Assembly: GCF_016862375.1 (NCBI RefSeq)
Contig: NZ_BOMV01000013.1
Coordinates: forward strand, 1-64,000
DNA from: Paractinoplanes rishiriensis
GTDB taxonomy: Bacteria > Actinomycetota > Actinomycetes > Mycobacteriales > Micromonosporaceae
Direction of reading: 5' to 3'
Length of the DNA stretch: 64,000 bases
Shown here piece after piece: positions 38,693 through 45,323 of this stretch. Under the pieces are notes generated by a model. It saw only the letters and a program-made list of their open reading frames with translations. It had not been told where the DNA came from and did no database searches. Numbering within the stretch: position 1 is the first letter of the stretch; each line of letters opens with the position of its first letter. The position numbers and the translations under genes are program-made.

Positions 38693-39643
38693 CTAAACCT
38701 GATCCCCGCCAGGCTTTGCGGGTCCGGTTCGGCGCTCCGGGTCCCGCCGGCCTTTCCGGGTCTCCTGGGCGCGCCAGTAGTCGAGGTCCTTCGCCGGTCC
38801 GGACGGTGTTGGCGCCGCCGGCTCGTCCGCGCGATGACCGCCTCCGAGAATCGACCCCAGGCCTCGCCGGAACCGGCCTTTCTCGGGCTCGGTGTGCGTC
38901 TCCGGGCCCGGTGCGGGGTCGGGAGGCGGGCTGGCCTCCTCGGCCGGCGCGGCGGCGGGAACCGGATCGGCCGGTGGCTCCGCGACGTCCGGCACGTCCG
39001 CAGACGAGCCCACGTGGGTCAGCGGTCCGGCGAACTCCAGCGGGATCTGGTCGAAGGCCGTCGCGTACGCAAAATCACCGGTAAAACGGGACAGCTCGTA
39101 CCAGCACCGCTCCCGATCGGACGGCGGCACCACCCACATGCCCCGGACCTGCCGGGGCCGGCCCGCGGGCCCGGCAGGCGGCTCGGCGGCCGCCGCCGCG
39201 GACCAGGGCGCGGCGACGAACGGCGACTCGTGCGGCACGCCCAGGTCGGACGGATGCCGCTTCCAGTCCAGCGGCATCCACGACCCGTAGATCTCGGCGG
39301 CCCAGGACACCCAGTGCCGCTCCAGGTCGGCGAGCGCGGGCAGAACCGGATCGGACGTCCGGGTCAGCCAGCCGGCGAAGCAGAACAGCGGCCGGCTGCC
39401 GTCGGAGTTCATCGTGTCGCTGAGCAGCGAAGCCCGGCCCGCGCCGCCGACCAGGACCGCGTCACCGCGCCGGGCCAGCAGCATGCGCGGTCCGGCGGCC
39501 AGCCCGTCACCGCCGTCGGCGCAGGCCAGCGCGGCGGCGGTGAGCCAATCCGGGTCCATGTCGCCGGGCCGTAGCCGCCACCAGCGGTCGGCCCGGTACG
39601 TCCGGCCGTAGAGGACCGGCTGCCAGACCTGTGCGGCGCTCAC
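38693..39643 (-). CDS. GTPase-associated hypothetical protein with proline-rich tail
   Basis: A 316-residue protein of unknown family. The N-terminal 200 residues form a globular, tryptophan-rich domain (QVWQPVLYGRTYRADRWWRL, DWLTAAALACADGG, RHWVSWAAEIYG). From about residue 205 it becomes Pro/Ala/Glu-rich and ends in a basic stretch. Its ATG overlaps the stop of the upstream GTPase gene (ATGA), so it is made with the GTPases and may act as their regulator or target; this is inference from coupling. Confidence 0.65.
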   Translation of the reverse strand: MSAAQVWQPVLYGRTYRADRWWRLRPGDMDPDWLTAAALACADGGDGLAAGPRMLLARRGDAVLVGGAGRASLLSDTMNSDGSRPLFCFAGWLTRTSDPVLPALADLERHWVSWAAEIYGSWMPLDWKRHPSDLGVPHESPFVAAPWSAAAAAEPPAGPAGRPRQVRGMWVVPPSDRERCWYELSRFTGDFAYATAFDQIPLEFAGPLTHVGSSADVPDVAEPPADPVPAAAPAEEASPPPDPAPGPETHTEPEKGRFRRGLGSILGGGHRADEPAAPTPSGPAKDLDYWRAQETRKGRRDPERRTGPAKPGGDQV

Positions 39644-40665
39644 AGCTGCACCTCGTTGCCGTCCCGGAATAGCGACAAGCCGCTGAGCTCGCCGAACAGC
39701 TGCTTGGCGCGGTGCGCGGCGACCTCCTGCACCGCCATGAAAGTCTCCAGTTCGTCGGCGGCCTGATCCGCCTCGCGGCTCGCCTTCGACGCCTGGCCAC
39801 GGCGGAAGACCGATCCGACACCCCGGGTCAGTCCCTTGCGCATCGACGCCAGCTGACCGGCCCGTTCCCGTTGCAGGCCGGCCGCCACGCCGGCGGCGAT
39901 CGAGAGCTGGTCCATGTACATGGCCAGCGAGTAGACGAGCGGCAAGTGCAGATTGTGCGGCTCGATGTCCTCGGCTTCGACCGTCGGACCCGGATCCGCG
40001 CCGAAGTCGCCGAGCATCACCGGACAGATCAGGGTGGTGAATCCGCCGGTGAACGCGACGCTGATGATCTGCTGGAGATCGTTGATGAGTCCGTCCATCG
40101 GCTCCCGGCGCTCCCGCGGGATCAGGTCGGCCTTGGTGATCAGGATGACCAGGGACGGCGGAGCGAGGTCCCTCCCGCGCCGGCGGATCGTGTCCTGCAG
40201 CAGATTCGTCATCCGGCGCAGGCCGGCCGCGCGGATCACGCCCATCCGGTTGCGGGCCGTGATCGGCTCGGCCAGGTACCGGCCGTCGATGACCAGATAG
40301 ATGGAGTCCGAGGCGACGAGCCGGTCCAGCACGCCGCCGACGTCGGCCTCTCCGCCTTCGCGTTCCTCGTTGATCGCGCCGCCGCGGTAGTCGAGCCAGT
40401 CGACGTCGAGCAACGGCAGCAGCCCGTCCAGGAACTGGAAGGTGTAGTTGATCTCGCTGTTCGGGTTGGGCGGTGGCAGGACACCGTCGTCCAGCAGCTT
40501 CTCCCAGCGGGAGGCCAGCCGCAGATCGATGTCCGTATTGGTGGCGCTCAGGAAGTAGCCTTCCTTGCCGGCCGACAACTCCGCGTACATGCCAAGCAGG
40601 AACGTCGTCTTGCCGGACCGCTTGTGCCCCATGGCGGTGACCGTCAACCTGGGCGGCTCGGCCAT
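39640..40665 (-). CDS. Divergent P-loop GTPase, first of a tandem pair
   Basis: A 341-residue TRAFAC-like GTPase. Walker A GHKRSGKT is at residues 13-20, a DYRGG switch-II-like segment at 92-96 (in place of DxxG), and TKAD at 177-180 as the base-specificity loop. It resembles the double-GTPase (DO-GTPase) families described in bacterial conflict systems; I rely on memory for that name. It is a clear paralogue of the next gene (shared DYRGGA). ATG at 40665 follows GAGGAG in a duplicated 25-bp segment. A C-terminal 80-residue helical tail with RRGQASKASREADQAADELE may be a coiled coil. Confidence 0.78.
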   Translation of the reverse strand: MAEPPRLTVTAMGHKRSGKTTFLLGMYAELSAGKEGYFLSATNTDIDLRLASRWEKLLDDGVLPPPNPNSEINYTFQFLDGLLPLLDVDWLDYRGGAINEEREGGEADVGGVLDRLVASDSIYLVIDGRYLAEPITARNRMGVIRAAGLRRMTNLLQDTIRRRGRDLAPPSLVILITKADLIPRERREPMDGLINDLQQIISVAFTGGFTTLICPVMLGDFGADPGPTVEAEDIEPHNLHLPLVYSLAMYMDQLSIAAGVAAGLQRERAGQLASMRKGLTRGVGSVFRRGQASKASREADQAADELETFMAVQEVAAHRAKQLFGELSGLSLFRDGNEVQL

Positions 40666-40715
40666 ATCGATCTCCTCAGAAAGTGACGGCATCGATCTCC
40701 TCAGAAAGTCACGGC
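40666..40715. repeat. Tandem 25-bp duplication at the GTPase gene junction
   Basis: Positions 40666-40690 and 40691-40715 are the same 25 bases with one mismatch. On the coding strand each copy contains the last codons and stop of the upstream GTPase gene plus the GAGGAG ribosome-binding site of the next gene. The duplication adds a second stop and ribosome-binding site. Confidence 0.95.
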
Positions 40716-41588
40716 GTCCTCGAACGCCGGTGCCAGCTGCTGGCTGGCGGTGATCAACGGCCGCAGGGAGGCCAGCTCGAGATCGGCCGCGACCTGGAGC
40801 TGTGCGGCGACGACGGTCCAGGTCGGCTCGCCGCGATACCAGCTGCGCACCCGGTCGACGACGCCGCCACGCTGCCGGGCAACGGCCTGCAGATGCTGGT
40901 AGTAGGCGACGTTCCGCTGTATCGCCCGCCCGCGGATCGCGATGCCCACGTGCAGGCACCACAGCACCGGGAAGATCACGTTGACCGCCTGCGGGCCGCA
41001 GGCCACCGGGATGATCAGGCCGTACACGTCGTCGGTGGCGCCGACGGCGGCGATCAGGTCACCGAGAAGGTCCCGGGCCCGCCGGGCGGCGGCGTCCTGG
41101 TCGGCCACCAGGTCCCACTTGGTCAAGGCGATCACCAGCGCGGTCGTCTCCTGGCGCTCGCGCAGCAACTTCACCGTGGTGGCGATCAGGGGCCGGACGT
41201 GGGCCTGCGCCCGGGGGCCGCTCGTCAAGCGGGTGCTGTCGATGGTCAGCACGAGCCCACCGGCCGCGGCCGCGTCGGCCCGCAGCTGGCTCGCCTGGGC
41301 CGAATCCGACGTCTCGGTCAGTGCACCGCCCCGGTAGTCACGCCAGACGAAGTCGAAGATCGGCTGCCCGGCGTGGTGGAGCCGCAGCAGGTAGTTGCTG
41401 CGCCGGGCGTTCGGCGGCGGATAGGTGCCGGACCGGATATGGCGGGCCAGCGACATCAACCGCTGGTGGTCCGCCGGGCGCTGGGCGCGGACGGTGAAGC
41501 CCTCACTGCCCCCGTTCATCTCCTCGTACATGGCCGACAGGTAGGACGTCTTCCCTGCCGCCTCATGGCCGAGCATCACCACGTCCAC
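40701..41588 (-). CDS. Divergent P-loop GTPase, second of a tandem pair
   Basis: A 295-residue GTPase paralogous to the neighbour at 39640. Walker A GHEAAGKTS begins at residue 7, DYRGG is at 84-88 and TKWD at 156-159, so all nucleotide-binding motifs are present. It lacks the long C-terminal tail of its neighbour and carries a hydrophobic stretch near 195-215 (YGLIIPVACGP, VIFPVLWCLHVGIAI). The GTG at 41588 lies 3 nt after the stop of the coiled-coil gene. Two side-by-side GTPases suggest a heterodimeric switch acting on, or gated by, the STAND protein. Confidence 0.78.
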   Translation of the reverse strand: MDVVMLGHEAAGKTSYLSAMYEEMNGGSEGFTVRAQRPADHQRLMSLARHIRSGTYPPPNARRSNYLLRLHHAGQPIFDFVWRDYRGGALTETSDSAQASQLRADAAAAGGLVLTIDSTRLTSGPRAQAHVRPLIATTVKLLRERQETTALVIALTKWDLVADQDAAARRARDLLGDLIAAVGATDDVYGLIIPVACGPQAVNVIFPVLWCLHVGIAIRGRAIQRNVAYYQHLQAVARQRGGVVDRVRSWYRGEPTWTVVAAQLQVAADLELASLRPLITASQQLAPAFEDAVTF

Positions 41589-41591
41589 GGC

Positions 41592-42896
41592 TCACCACTC
41601 CCCGAACGGTGCGTTAGGGTCGCCGCCCCGGGTCAGCACGATGCGCGGTTCGGAGCTCTCCCCGGTCTTGTCCCGGGTGCGCCGGACCAGTTCCCGGCTC
41701 GGCGCCGCCGGAGCCGCGACGGGCAGCGGTTCACGCAACGCCGCGCGTGCCTTCGCGTCGAGCAGATCCGGGCTCTCCCGGTCCAGGCGTTCGAGCATCG
41801 TTACGTGCCACTCCGCCAGCTGCTTGTCGGCCCGCGCCGCCAGAATCGCGTCGCGCAGGGTCGCCGACGGCCGGCCGTTGAGCGCCTCCAGCGCCTCCAC
41901 CACATCGGCCCGGGCCGCCGCCCGGTCACCCAGGGCGATCTGCCGCCGGCTCCGATGCAGCAGGTGGTACGCCGGATCGGCCAGCGCTTCGCGATCCACC
42001 GGGAACACGAGCTGTGCCGCCGCCTCCGGACCCAACTCCCGGATCGCCGTGTCGATCTGCTCGTCGTACCCGCGCCGGCGCAACAGGTGGTAGGCGTCCA
42101 CCGCGGCGGTTGCGGCGACGGCGGCCAGCCGCGTCGCCCACTCCGTCTGAACCGTCGACAGCGACCGCTCGTCGGCCACCGACGGCGGGCTGACGAAGCC
42201 GTGGCTCGACGCCTCCTCCAACGCGTCCAGTCGCTCCCTCGTCCAGGCGTCCCGGTCGGGCAGCGGCATCCAGGCGATCTGGCTCATCGGGCGAACCGTC
42301 TGACCGCCCAGATGAGAACCGCCCAGCCAGACCAGCAGCCATCCGCTGACAACCTCGACCCGCAGCACGACGGTCGGCACACCGGCCAGGTCATGGCGCA
42401 GCAGCGCCGCGTGCGGCCAGGTGAAGTCGCGGTCGGCAGCCTGCACGAACGCGAGGTGGGCGTGCTGCAGGGGCATCAGGAACGCCTCGACGCGCCGGCT
42501 CAGGCTGTGCCACATCGGGTCGGCGCCGTCCCGCGTCGGGACGATGAGGATCAACGGAGGCATCGTCTGCAGGTCGGCATACACCGTGCGGATGTTCTCG
42601 CGCAGTGATCCGGCCCCGGCGGTGAACGGGTAGTGCCGCAGCGCTTCGGTCTCGCGCGCGAGCGCCGCCGCCCGGTCGTCGTCCTCCCGCTTGTCGCGGC
42701 GGCCACGGATGTACTCCTCGCGCGCCTGCTGCTGGTCCTCGGCGCGGCGGCGCGACTCCGCCTGGTCCTGGCGTGCGGCCTGCTCCTGCTCACGGGCGAC
42801 AACCCGGCGATCGAGGTAGATTTCCAGGCCGGCCGTGGTGAGCCGTAGCGCACCCTCGATCAGTCCCGCTGTCGCACTGTACGGATCCGCCGCCAT
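41592..42896 (-). CDS. Coiled-coil protein of unknown function in the GTPase/STAND cluster
   Basis: A 434-residue protein. Residues 30-85 form a highly charged Arg/Glu/Gln coiled coil (REQEQAARQDQAESRRRAED and onward). The middle, about 110-210, is an alpha/beta domain with LILIVPTRDGADPMW and GWLLVWLGGSHLGGQ. The C-terminal half is helical, perhaps repeat-like. No catalytic motif is recognised. It sits 3 nt upstream of the second GTPase gene. ATG at 42896 gives MAADPYSATAGLIEGALRL. Probably an adaptor or sensor between STAND and GTPase parts; this is inference. Confidence 0.68.
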   Translation of the reverse strand: MAADPYSATAGLIEGALRLTTAGLEIYLDRRVVAREQEQAARQDQAESRRRAEDQQQAREEYIRGRRDKREDDDRAAALARETEALRHYPFTAGAGSLRENIRTVYADLQTMPPLILIVPTRDGADPMWHSLSRRVEAFLMPLQHAHLAFVQAADRDFTWPHAALLRHDLAGVPTVVLRVEVVSGWLLVWLGGSHLGGQTVRPMSQIAWMPLPDRDAWTRERLDALEEASSHGFVSPPSVADERSLSTVQTEWATRLAAVAATAAVDAYHLLRRRGYDEQIDTAIRELGPEAAAQLVFPVDREALADPAYHLLHRSRRQIALGDRAAARADVVEALEALNGRPSATLRDAILAARADKQLAEWHVTMLERLDRESPDLLDAKARAALREPLPVAAPAAPSRELVRRTRDKTGESSEPRIVLTRGGDPNAPFGEW

Positions 42897-43016
42897 CGGT
42901 CACCTCCCGGGCTTTCCAGGTGGTGACTGTAAGCAGCCGCGCGGACACCAGCTGTCGGATGAAGGACGCAGGTCCGGAACACTGGCCGATCATCGATGCC
43001 GGTGCGACCGTACGGG

Positions 43017-45323
43017 TCAAGGATGTGAGCGAGTTGTGCCGGCTCCTGGTCGGGCGCCGGTCAGGCGCAGGATGATCTGGTCCACCTCGGCCAGGGTGAT
43101 CTTCCAGCCGCCGGGTGTCAGGTCGCTGAGCGTCACCCGATCCTCCCGGCCGGTCCGGCCCAGATGCAGCGCCGTGGCGAACGCCTGCCGGACGGCCGCC
43201 TCTCGACCGTCCGGTGCCATCCCGAGGAGCTCGCGCAGACGGGATTTCAGTTGGGGGTCGTCGAGGGCGAGCACGGACTGCATGTCGGCGATCATCCGCT
43301 CGCGGAGCCGGATCAGTTCGCCGGAGTCCCGGTTGTCGGCGATCGTCGCGATGGTGGCCAGGGCGGCCGGCGCGGTGCGGTAGGAGGGGTGTTCGTACAG
43401 CTCGGCGAGGAGGATGGGCAGCGTCCGCCGATTCCGGGTGGCCACGAAGACGTAGTGGGTGGCGGTGGTGATGCTCACCGAGTTGTGGGTGCGGTAGGCC
43501 CGGCCGATCTGGTCGATCAGCGCGTCGTCCATGGCCGGATCGACGGGCGGTCGCAGCTGGATGATGGTGCGGGCCGCGATCACCGAGGCCTCGTACGACG
43601 TGTCGTCGCCGAGCATCTCGAACAGCCGGACGGAGGACTCGCGCGGTAGCAGCTCGCCGATGAAGGTGCGCATCTCCTCGGTGACCCGCTGGTTGGCGAA
43701 GGAGGGCAGGGCGCGGAACGGGCGGCCGACCCCGGCGACGAAGGCGCGAGCGGCGAAGTACTCCTCGAACGACTTGTGCATGAAGGTGTAGTTGCCGTTC
43801 GGGTCGCGGTTGAGGAACAGGCTGGTCCGGACGATGCCGTCCCACGCCTGGAGGTCCACGGCCGAGAGGATCCGGGCCTCGAAGTGCCGGCGCACACTGT
43901 CGGTGAGGTGCCGGTGGTGGATCGAGTCCCGTCCCCGCATCAGCGACGTGAAGGCGAGCTCCTCCACGAAATGCAGGACCTCCGCCGGTTCCAGGCCCCG
44001 CCACCGCTCGCGCTCCAGCCACTTCTCCGCGGCGATCTCGTACAGCCGGGCCTGCCCGATGCCGCCGCCCTCGGCGCGCAGTTCCGGCAGCAGGTGGGTG
44101 ATCAGGTTGAGTAGAATCGGACGGTTCGCCAGGTCCTTCAGGTCGTAGATGCGCTCGATGGTCCGCTCGGCCCGCTGCCAGCCGTCTCCCTGCGTACGGC
44201 GGAGATATTCCTGCCGCTGGCCGACGCTGAGCGGCGCCAGGTACAGGGTCGGCGTCCGACGGCCCTCGGCCAGGAGGCCGGTGGCGAGCGGGTCGGGCGC
44301 GGTCAGCAGGCGGCTCTCGGCGATCTCGTCGCGGAAGAAGTGCGTCCGGCAGGTGAGCATGATCTTGCTGGCGGCCGGCAACCTGCCGCTGACCTGGAAC
44401 AGCAGCCGGCTGGTCTCCTGGTCGCTGAACCGCTCGGCCTGTTCGTCCAGGCCGTCGAGGACGATGAGCAGCCGGGTCACCTCGCCGAGCCGGGTGGTGT
44501 CGCCGCCCAGCCGCCGCAACTCGGCGCCGAGCATGTCGGACAGCGTCGCGGTCGAGCGGTAGGCGCGCAGCGGGATCAGCACCGGGAGGACTCCCGCGCC
44601 GGGTTTCCAGGCGGTGGCCAGGTCCCGGCACACGTGCCGGGCGAACGTCGTCTTGCCGCTGCCGAAGTCGCCGAGCACCGCCAGCAGCGGTTCGGCGGGA
44701 TCGTCGAGCCACCTGCGGAAGCGCCGCTCCAGGTCGGACCGGCGGCCGCTCACCTCGGCGTCGAGCGGGACGTAGTGGGCCGTGCTTTCGGTGTCCCGGC
44801 CGAGTTCGGCGGCGAGCCGCAGGCAGTATTCGCCCCAGGCCCGTTCCGGTGCCGGGGCGGCGGGGCCGCCGCCCAGCCGGGACACCTCGCGGGCCAGGTC
44901 GGTGGCGACCTGGCCGGCCAGGTTTTCCGGGGTGGTGAACGTGCTGCGGACGAGCCGGCCGACCCGCTCCTTGAAGGCGGCGAGGCGGTCGGCGGGGCCG
45001 GCCTGGTCGATCATCGGGGGTGGCCACGGGTGATCGTCGTCGATCACGTAGCAGAGGCGGATCTTCCCGGCGGCGCGGTCGAACTCGAGTTCGGTGATCG
45101 AGGGGCCGTCCGGAGCCGGTTGCCAGCCGTAACGCCAGGCGTAGACGCCGACGAAGATGTCGCACTCGTCGATCTCCTGCTCGCAGACCGGCAGGGCCTC
45201 GTCGCCGCGGCTGCCGAAGTGCTCCATCGCGGAGAACTGGAGCTTCATCCGGGCCAGGACCTGGGTGATCAGCTCACGGTGTGCCGCGAGGTCCCGGTAT
45301 GTGGAGCTGACGAAAATCCGCAT
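43017..45323 (-). CDS. DUF4062-NACHT STAND NTPase
   Basis: A 768-residue STAND-type signalling ATPase. Residues 1-90 are a DUF4062 domain (MRIFVSSTYRDLAAHRELI, DIFVGVYAWRYG), commonly found fused to NACHT modules. The NACHT core has Walker A GDFGSGKT at about 218-225 and Walker B LIVLDGLDE at about 286-294. A HEAT-like helical region runs from about 500 to the end. Such proteins act as ligand-triggered switches in immunity and signalling. ATG at 45323 starts the DUF4062 domain exactly, though no strong ribosome-binding site is visible. A gap of 120 nt separates it from the coiled-coil gene on the same strand. Confidence 0.85.
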   Translation of the reverse strand: MRIFVSSTYRDLAAHRELITQVLARMKLQFSAMEHFGSRGDEALPVCEQEIDECDIFVGVYAWRYGWQPAPDGPSITELEFDRAAGKIRLCYVIDDDHPWPPPMIDQAGPADRLAAFKERVGRLVRSTFTTPENLAGQVATDLAREVSRLGGGPAAPAPERAWGEYCLRLAAELGRDTESTAHYVPLDAEVSGRRSDLERRFRRWLDDPAEPLLAVLGDFGSGKTTFARHVCRDLATAWKPGAGVLPVLIPLRAYRSTATLSDMLGAELRRLGGDTTRLGEVTRLLIVLDGLDEQAERFSDQETSRLLFQVSGRLPAASKIMLTCRTHFFRDEIAESRLLTAPDPLATGLLAEGRRTPTLYLAPLSVGQRQEYLRRTQGDGWQRAERTIERIYDLKDLANRPILLNLITHLLPELRAEGGGIGQARLYEIAAEKWLERERWRGLEPAEVLHFVEELAFTSLMRGRDSIHHRHLTDSVRRHFEARILSAVDLQAWDGIVRTSLFLNRDPNGNYTFMHKSFEEYFAARAFVAGVGRPFRALPSFANQRVTEEMRTFIGELLPRESSVRLFEMLGDDTSYEASVIAARTIIQLRPPVDPAMDDALIDQIGRAYRTHNSVSITTATHYVFVATRNRRTLPILLAELYEHPSYRTAPAALATIATIADNRDSGELIRLRERMIADMQSVLALDDPQLKSRLRELLGMAPDGREAAVRQAFATALHLGRTGREDRVTLSDLTPGGWKITLAEVDQIILRLTGARPGAGTTRSHP

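Follow-up and report, generated by a model that had tools for sequence, protein, structure and literature searches.

In the 64-kb stretch of DNA considered here (the window), four adjacent genes, termed CC, G1, G2 and P, comprise the best-supported unit of a five-gene cluster, as the same four genes are found together in three other genomes, in none of which does a homologue of the fifth gene, STAND, lie alongside. Of the five-gene system originally predicted, CC-G1-G2-P thus recurs as a whole, whereas STAND does not recur with it. The best reading of the four-gene unit is as a variant of the DO-GTPase systems in which no GAP1 is recognised, namely a switch like those of Rag or Rab GTPases with longin proteins, or of MglA with MglB, that is served by exchangeable input and output modules.

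Five open reading frames, all on the minus strand, were confirmed between positions 38693 and 45323. STAND (43017-45323; 768 aa) encodes a DUF4062-NACHT protein and is a neighbour that probably belongs to a separate system. It is followed by CC (41592-42896; 434 aa), whose product comprises an N-terminal helix and coiled coil preceding a conserved region that has no assigned fold, by G1 (40701-41588; 295 aa), encoding a DO-GTPase1/2-like GTPase, by G2 (39640-40692 or, given its ambiguous start codon, 39640-40665; 350 or 341 aa), encoding a DO-GTPase2-like GTPase, and by P (38693-39643; 316 aa), encoding a protein with a predicted N-terminal longin-like domain and a proline-rich C-terminal part. 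Although four tight or overlapping junctions had been described, only three are tight, with CC and G1 being separated by 3 nt, G1 and G2 by 8 or 35 nt, depending on the G2 start, and G2 and P overlapping by 4 nt. By contrast, a gap of 120 nt separates STAND and CC. Rfam and tRNA scans of the 64-kb window yielded no match, and no PADLOC-DB 2.0.0 profile matched CC, G1, G2 or P at E 0.1. The association with a defence island that had been envisaged was not borne out, since PADLOC analysis of 10 other window genes returned only a marginal match (2.1e-4), involving an alcohol dehydrogenase.

Gene neighbourhoods were considered in 59 loci (the window and 58 others) searched with family HMMs, such that genes lacking an HMM may be missed. 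Strong G2 matches, i.e., those with E below 1e-50, define 43 distinct loci (42 and L130, a second contig of the genome containing L017 that was counted), with three repeats (L115, L128 and L129, corresponding to L013, L003 and L004, respectively) being uncounted. P adjoins G2 in every one of the 43, lying directly downstream in 41 according to the distance rule of the script, downstream and slightly overlapping in L140 and upstream in L143; P was found in the locus of none of the 12 weak G2 hits. Because the G2-P pair recurs in every distinct strong locus examined, the cluster reflects more than chance, with the pairing of G2 and a downstream partner being conserved across two phyla. The number of independent lineages is smaller than that of loci, as many are close relatives (e.g., L007/L008/L112, L010-L012, L132/L133 and L005/L018). 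No locus read proved to be a secretion or motility operon, the housekeeping setting deemed incompatible with the original prediction.

The companions of the G2-P pair vary. An Hsp70-type gene is found in 13 of the 43 loci (11 actinobacterial and two cyanobacterial), all 13 of which also include dynamin-like genes in the counted span. This identity is based on matches to Pfam HSP70 in the three cases tested (L007, L009 and L013) and on annotation as Hsp70 in L005. Ser/Thr kinase genes are found in nine loci, with Pfam Pkinase being matched in both of those tested (L132 and L140), and CC is found in four (the window, L006, L106 and L117); no dynamin gene appears in any of the nine or the four. 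Six loci contain a second P and G1 upstream of G2, with dynamin in one (L016), and three contain G1 only (L142, L144 and L130, the contig of which starts within G1). The remaining eight are without an assigned companion (L020, L021, L107, L114, L118, L119, L139 and L143); here, L139 lies at a contig end, L118 includes a doubtful Hsp70 match, and weak Dynamin_N matches are found near L107, L118 and L020. The possibility that CC-type genomes require dynamin was considered and rejected, with dynamin-like matches being found elsewhere in G000 and G642 and none in G695 or G1101.

When compared with Pfam, CC was assigned to no family, its only two hits (E 0.07 and 0.13) being sub-threshold. Its homologues lie directly upstream of G1 in L006, L106 and L117. 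Reading of the sequences upstream of CC points to a cyclase-like gene for L106 and a dioxygenase-like frame for L117, and an Ig-like protein is encoded a little farther upstream in L006. In a G2 tree, the inner support of which is weak in places, the CC loci form two separate pairs, one comprising the window and L006 and the other L106 and L117. As CC occupies the slot taken by an Hsp70-type ATPase or kinase in relatives, and as P models as a longin-like GTPase partner (see below), the earlier suggestion that one or the other serves as effector is not favoured.

The gene cluster is rare among bacteria. G1 relatives are present in Actinomycetota and Cyanobacteriota, and an alignment-based scan of genome contigs yielded 16 loci from these phyla. 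As a single query, G1 detected only its own genome among 249 genomes of an order sample and 396 of a phylum sample. These counts understate the spread, since a G2 alignment found matches in five of 67 genomes from the genus, a figure that counts the window genome itself and two weak hits. The same alignment matched six of 249 genomes in the family of the L007 genome, one of 38 (L006 itself) in that of the L006 genome, 14 of 200 (eight weakly) in the order to which L009 belongs and, at E 1e-30, 24 of 243 in that to which L016 belongs. From these last 24 genomes, all cyanobacterial, 18 loci were examined (L016 and 17 others) and six were left out. A tblastn search of plasmids with G1 identified three cyanobacterial records, one copy having toxin genes and a dCTP deaminase annotated as anti-phage in its vicinity.

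It is possible, if on the unlikely side, that these genes form a module by which multicellular bacteria remodel their membranes, whether for housekeeping or in development (septation or envelope repair), and that they play no part in conflict. Dynamin-like and Hsp70-type partners would suit such a module, as would the finding of four kinase-type loci on contigs of 4.5-6.4 Mb, which given their size are probably chromosomes. The very patchy distribution, be it the one genome among the 396 of the phylum sample when G1 was the query, the six of 249 in one family or the five of 67 in the genus (two of them weak), argues against this, as do the three plasmid-borne copies, including that near the anti-phage deaminase and toxin genes.

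Turning to the GTPases, G1 and G2 share approximately 30% identity over some 216 aa and a common DYRGG motif, confirming that they are paralogous, and Pfam searches bore out their relation to double-GTPase families linked to predicted conflict systems. With cut-offs of 27 bits, G1 matches the DO-GTPase families (PF19975/PF19993), scoring 39.7 bits (4.5e-10) against DO-GTPase1 and 37.2 bits (3.3e-9) against DO-GTPase2, and G2 falls slightly below the cut-off for DO-GTPase2 (26.1 bits; 8e-6). Across 17 aligned G2 rows, including that from the window, the G and K of the P-loop, D-x-R-G and T-K-x-D are invariant. Kaur et al. (2020; PMC7159879, cited here in part) describe the Walker B motif of the DO-GTPase family as having a conserved glutamate; the G3 motif of G2 is DYRG, and no invariant Glu is listed for the 17 rows, taken on their own rather than against the published alignment. 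Neither GTPase matched a Pfam zinc-ribbon family, and the hydropathy peaks of G1 (1.82) and G2 (1.89) both lie inside the G domains. A PDB sequence search with the G2 profile returned nothing useful.

P matched no Pfam family at E 1, and its profile likewise found nothing useful among PDB sequences, the best match being to a potassium-channel subunit (E 0.29). The AlphaFold2 model of the 316-aa window protein contains one confident domain, the elements of which appear in the order b-b-a-b-b-b-a (E7-13, E21-25, H31-45, E53-59, E62-70, E87-94 and H104-127). This order is that of the longin topology. The N-terminal domain (approximately residues 1-215; 38999-39643, minus strand) models as a longin-like GTPase partner. 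Residues invariant across 21 P sequences include Y12, R14, T15, D19, P26, R84, G91, Y119, W127 and W181. Outside the longin group, TagF was the best fold match of the model. P is homologous to cyanobacterial proteins encoded both before and after the GTPases, and several cyanobacterial loci carry two P paralogues.

That P is instead a divergent GAP1-N, and the cluster a true GAP1-type DO-GTPase conflict system, is considered unlikely. In the paper defining the family, DO-GTPases work with GAP1, which is typically encoded downstream of the DO-GTPase gene, and partners of the Hsp70 and kinase kinds are among the themes described for GAP1-N2 systems (PMC7159879, in part); G1, moreover, scores above both DO-GTPase cut-offs. 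However, at E 1 none of the five proteins matches a Pfam family named for GAP1, GASH or FNIII (the presence of such models in Pfam being assumed), the GTPases are without a zinc-ribbon family match, and P, with a single confident model domain, differs from GAP1, with its three globular domains (N, M and C; PMC7159879, in part).

C-terminal aromatic tails were counted once per distinct sequence among matches at E 1e-40 or better, with background genes being called by a custom script; the associated Fisher values do not account for relatedness, and the motif was selected from the same data. In cyanobacteria, F or W is found in the last three residues of P (25/27), G1 (9/13), the kinase (8/8), the Hsp70-type protein (1/1), the product of a zinc-ribbon-like gene (3/4), dynamin (1/4) and G2 (1/16), relative to 28 of 189 other genes. 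It was only once eight genes of an earlier background set were found to end in WF that the kinases were recognised. In actinobacteria, F or W is the last residue of G1 in 9/17 cases, of the Hsp70-type protein in 3/12 (5/12 when the last three residues are considered) and of CC in 1/4, and is never so for P (0/19), dynamin (0/16) or G2 (0/20); the corresponding value for neighbouring genes is 12/362, or 29/362 within the last three residues. In the window, G1 ends in EDAVTF-COOH (40704-40721, minus strand), a tail assigned from the frequency of F/W ends in actinobacterial G1, and CC ends in APFGEW-COOH (41595-41612, minus strand), which for CC alone (1/4) is not significant. The idea that every component is tailed was rejected, as G2, dynamins and actinobacterial P are without a tail at the end.

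Pfam searches confirmed STAND as combining DUF4062 (5.1e-23) and NACHT (6.4e-13). The NACHT NTPase domain (residues 214-376; 44196-44684, minus strand) presents both Walker A (GDFGSGKT) and Walker B (LLIVLDGLDE) motifs, and the DUF4062 (TIR-like NADase) domain (residues 2-84; 45072-45320, minus strand) includes E78 at the presumed catalytic position. Among PDB sequences, STAND matched only KpSwz (10wc_A; phmmer E 4.5e-10). SITELEF in STAND is aligned with SFTEKAF in KpSwz, such that the Glu we place at the active site is kept, and E78 corresponds in the alignment to the Glu at position 82 of the 10wc chain, taken to be E97 on the assumption that the chain begins at residue 16. A preprint describes DUF4062 as a TIR-like NADase in which E97 is required for defence, with DUF4062 NADases defending against phage (PMC13174449, cited here in part). 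Since its DUF4062 aligns with that of the NADase KpSwz and keeps this Glu, STAND is a candidate DUF4062 NADase, and the original statement that the cluster encodes no obvious toxin is probably wrong for this protein. The alignment stops at residue 147, the NACHT domain follows, and no portal-binding auxiliary domain was recognised. Only weak PADLOC-DB 2.0.0 matches were obtained (mad8 at 2.5e-4, TRIP13 and RtcR).

Searching the 58 other loci with the STAND HMM gave no match, nor does STAND lie upstream in the three other CC-G1-G2-P loci. Within the genus, a search revealed no second full-length STAND, other matches being partial, and STAND relatives and G2 matches fall in two different sets of four other genomes. 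On the neighbourhoods searched, STAND was rejected as a conserved cluster member, and its proposed role as sensor of the GTPase system is not supported. With no STAND in other loci, and with an NTPase of its own and a DUF4062 matching KpSwz, STAND looks from its sequence like a self-contained candidate NADase immune gene, separate from CC-G1-G2-P. A five-gene conflict system, in which STAND would sense phage, the GTPase pair would gate the response and DUF4062-mediated NAD+ depletion would be the output, is accordingly improbable, for although STAND lies on the same strand as CC across the 120-nt gap, DUF4062 NADases are antiphage (PMC13174449, in part) and STAND NTPases are acquired modules in ternary systems (PMC7159879, in part), STAND is absent from the three other CC loci and the 58 other loci searched, at the limits applied no genome of the genus but its own matched STAND as well as G2, and the protein has its own NTPase and candidate effector.

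Taken jointly, it is reasonably probable that CC-G1-G2-P comprises a P-controlled GTPase switch with an exchangeable, tail-docked input and a membrane output, and that STAND is separate. In this P-controlled switch, G1 and G2 would pair up. Longin and roadblock proteins control the GTP state of Rag, Rab and MglA; the longin-like domain of P may bind G1/G2 and control their GTP state as a GAP, GEF or platform. The exchangeable input module, be it an Hsp70-type ATPase, a Ser/Thr kinase or, in the window, CC, would use its short aromatic tail at the C-terminus for docking, with G2, which is universal and almost never tailed, as the likeliest site, and would set the switch upon envelope stress or infection. 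Output would occur at the membrane, in Hsp70-type relatives via linked dynamin-like GTPases and in the window genome, since no dynamin gene is linked there, via P itself or a dynamin encoded elsewhere.

A role in conflict or in the response to envelope stress is plausible for CC-G1-G2-P. Counted in favour of a conflict role were the patchy spread, the plasmid copies, the one copy near an annotated anti-phage gene and the analogy to Bacillus, where a bacterial dynamin delays phage lysis (PMC8844932, cited here in part); counted against it was that no defence island is recognised at the window. Only tentatively can the system be put forward as the bacterial equivalent of the GTPase control seen in eukaryotic membrane traffic, with a GTPase pair, longin-fold gating and Hsp70, kinase, coiled-coil and dynamin modules joined via a DWF/DPF-like tail. 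FLCN-FNIP and NPRL2-NPRL3 are paired longin-fold partners, to which the P paralogues, often two per locus, may be likened.

Among known systems, Swarozyc has in common with STAND only, and not with the GTPase genes, a DUF4062 with a presumed catalytic Glu; unlike Swarozyc, STAND has NACHT and a C-terminal region in place of the portal-binding auxiliary domain of KpSwz, with DUF4062 adjoining NACHT as in human TEP1 and NWD1 (PMC13174449, in part). DynA-based phage tolerance (PMC8844932, in part) finds a parallel in the dynamin-like GTPases linked to relatives of the module, none being linked in the window. As in Rag-FLCN/NPRL, Rab-TRAPP/DENN and MglA-MglB, a GTPase, here a pair, is combined with a longin/roadblock-fold partner; unlike in those systems, the GTPases match DO-GTPase, and the likeness is one of the fold of a single P model, with regulation being predicted only. 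The nearest described systems are the DO-GTPase (GAP1-N1/GAP1-N2) systems, with which paralogous tandem TRAFAC-type GTPases, a partner gene directly downstream, some Hsp70 and kinase components and occurrence in actinobacteria are shared (Kaur et al., 2020; PMC7159879, in part). Unlike these, the window cluster is without recognised GAP1, GASH or FNIII, P appears to be of a different family, longin-like by model, and relatives present dynamin-like partners, a word absent from the main text of that paper, and common C-terminal aromatic tails. The Hsp70/kinase/dynamin-G2-P arrangement was not found described in the open-access literature searched. The system offers testable parts, namely the two-gene G2-P core, several interchangeable kinds of companion and a short tail that may predict which proteins dock. 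Should P prove to be a true longin-type regulator, bacterial paired-GTPase/longin switches linked to dynamins would bear on the origin of membrane-traffic control, given that a DO-GTPase-type switch is here paired not with GAP1 but with P, which resembles the regulators of Rag and Rab.

Examination of the junction between the window's paralogous DO-GTPase-like genes, G1 and G2, revealed a 25-bp tandem duplication with one mismatch (40666-40715), which copies the region around the stop codon of G1 together with a GGAG motif resembling a ribosome-binding site. As a result of this duplication, G2 presents two possible starts.

When weaker G2-like matches in actinobacteria were considered, P, the partner of G2 with a predicted longin-like domain, was absent in each case (12 of 12; L108-L111 and L120-L127); these twelve matches may represent other DO-GTPase families. 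One genome of the genus to which the window belongs carries, immediately upstream of its G2-P pair, a gene (L107:7088-9421) for a 777-aa GTPase that weakly resembles dynamins. A second DUF4062-like stretch was noted in the window's own genome (G000:C114:26034-26564), inside a 2161-aa open frame, sharing 40% identity with residues 2-176 of the STAND protein.

Beside several cyanobacterial loci, a gene set recurs (L003 5809-10678; L014 15741-20606; L131 3143-7835; and L143) that encodes a double-AAA ATPase (~848 aa), a coiled-coil protein and a third protein, read as zinc-ribbon-like, on which a C-terminal aromatic tail (F/W) is frequent. At some loci, Hsp70 and a radical-SAM activator-like gene are extra members.

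Elsewhere, a patatin-like phospholipase gene (L015:14566-15609; Pfam 3.6e-38) is found two genes downstream of P. On a Geminocystis plasmid (L004:1784-5306) the module lies close to an annotated anti-phage dCTP deaminase, with dGTP triphosphohydrolase and toxin genes also nearby.
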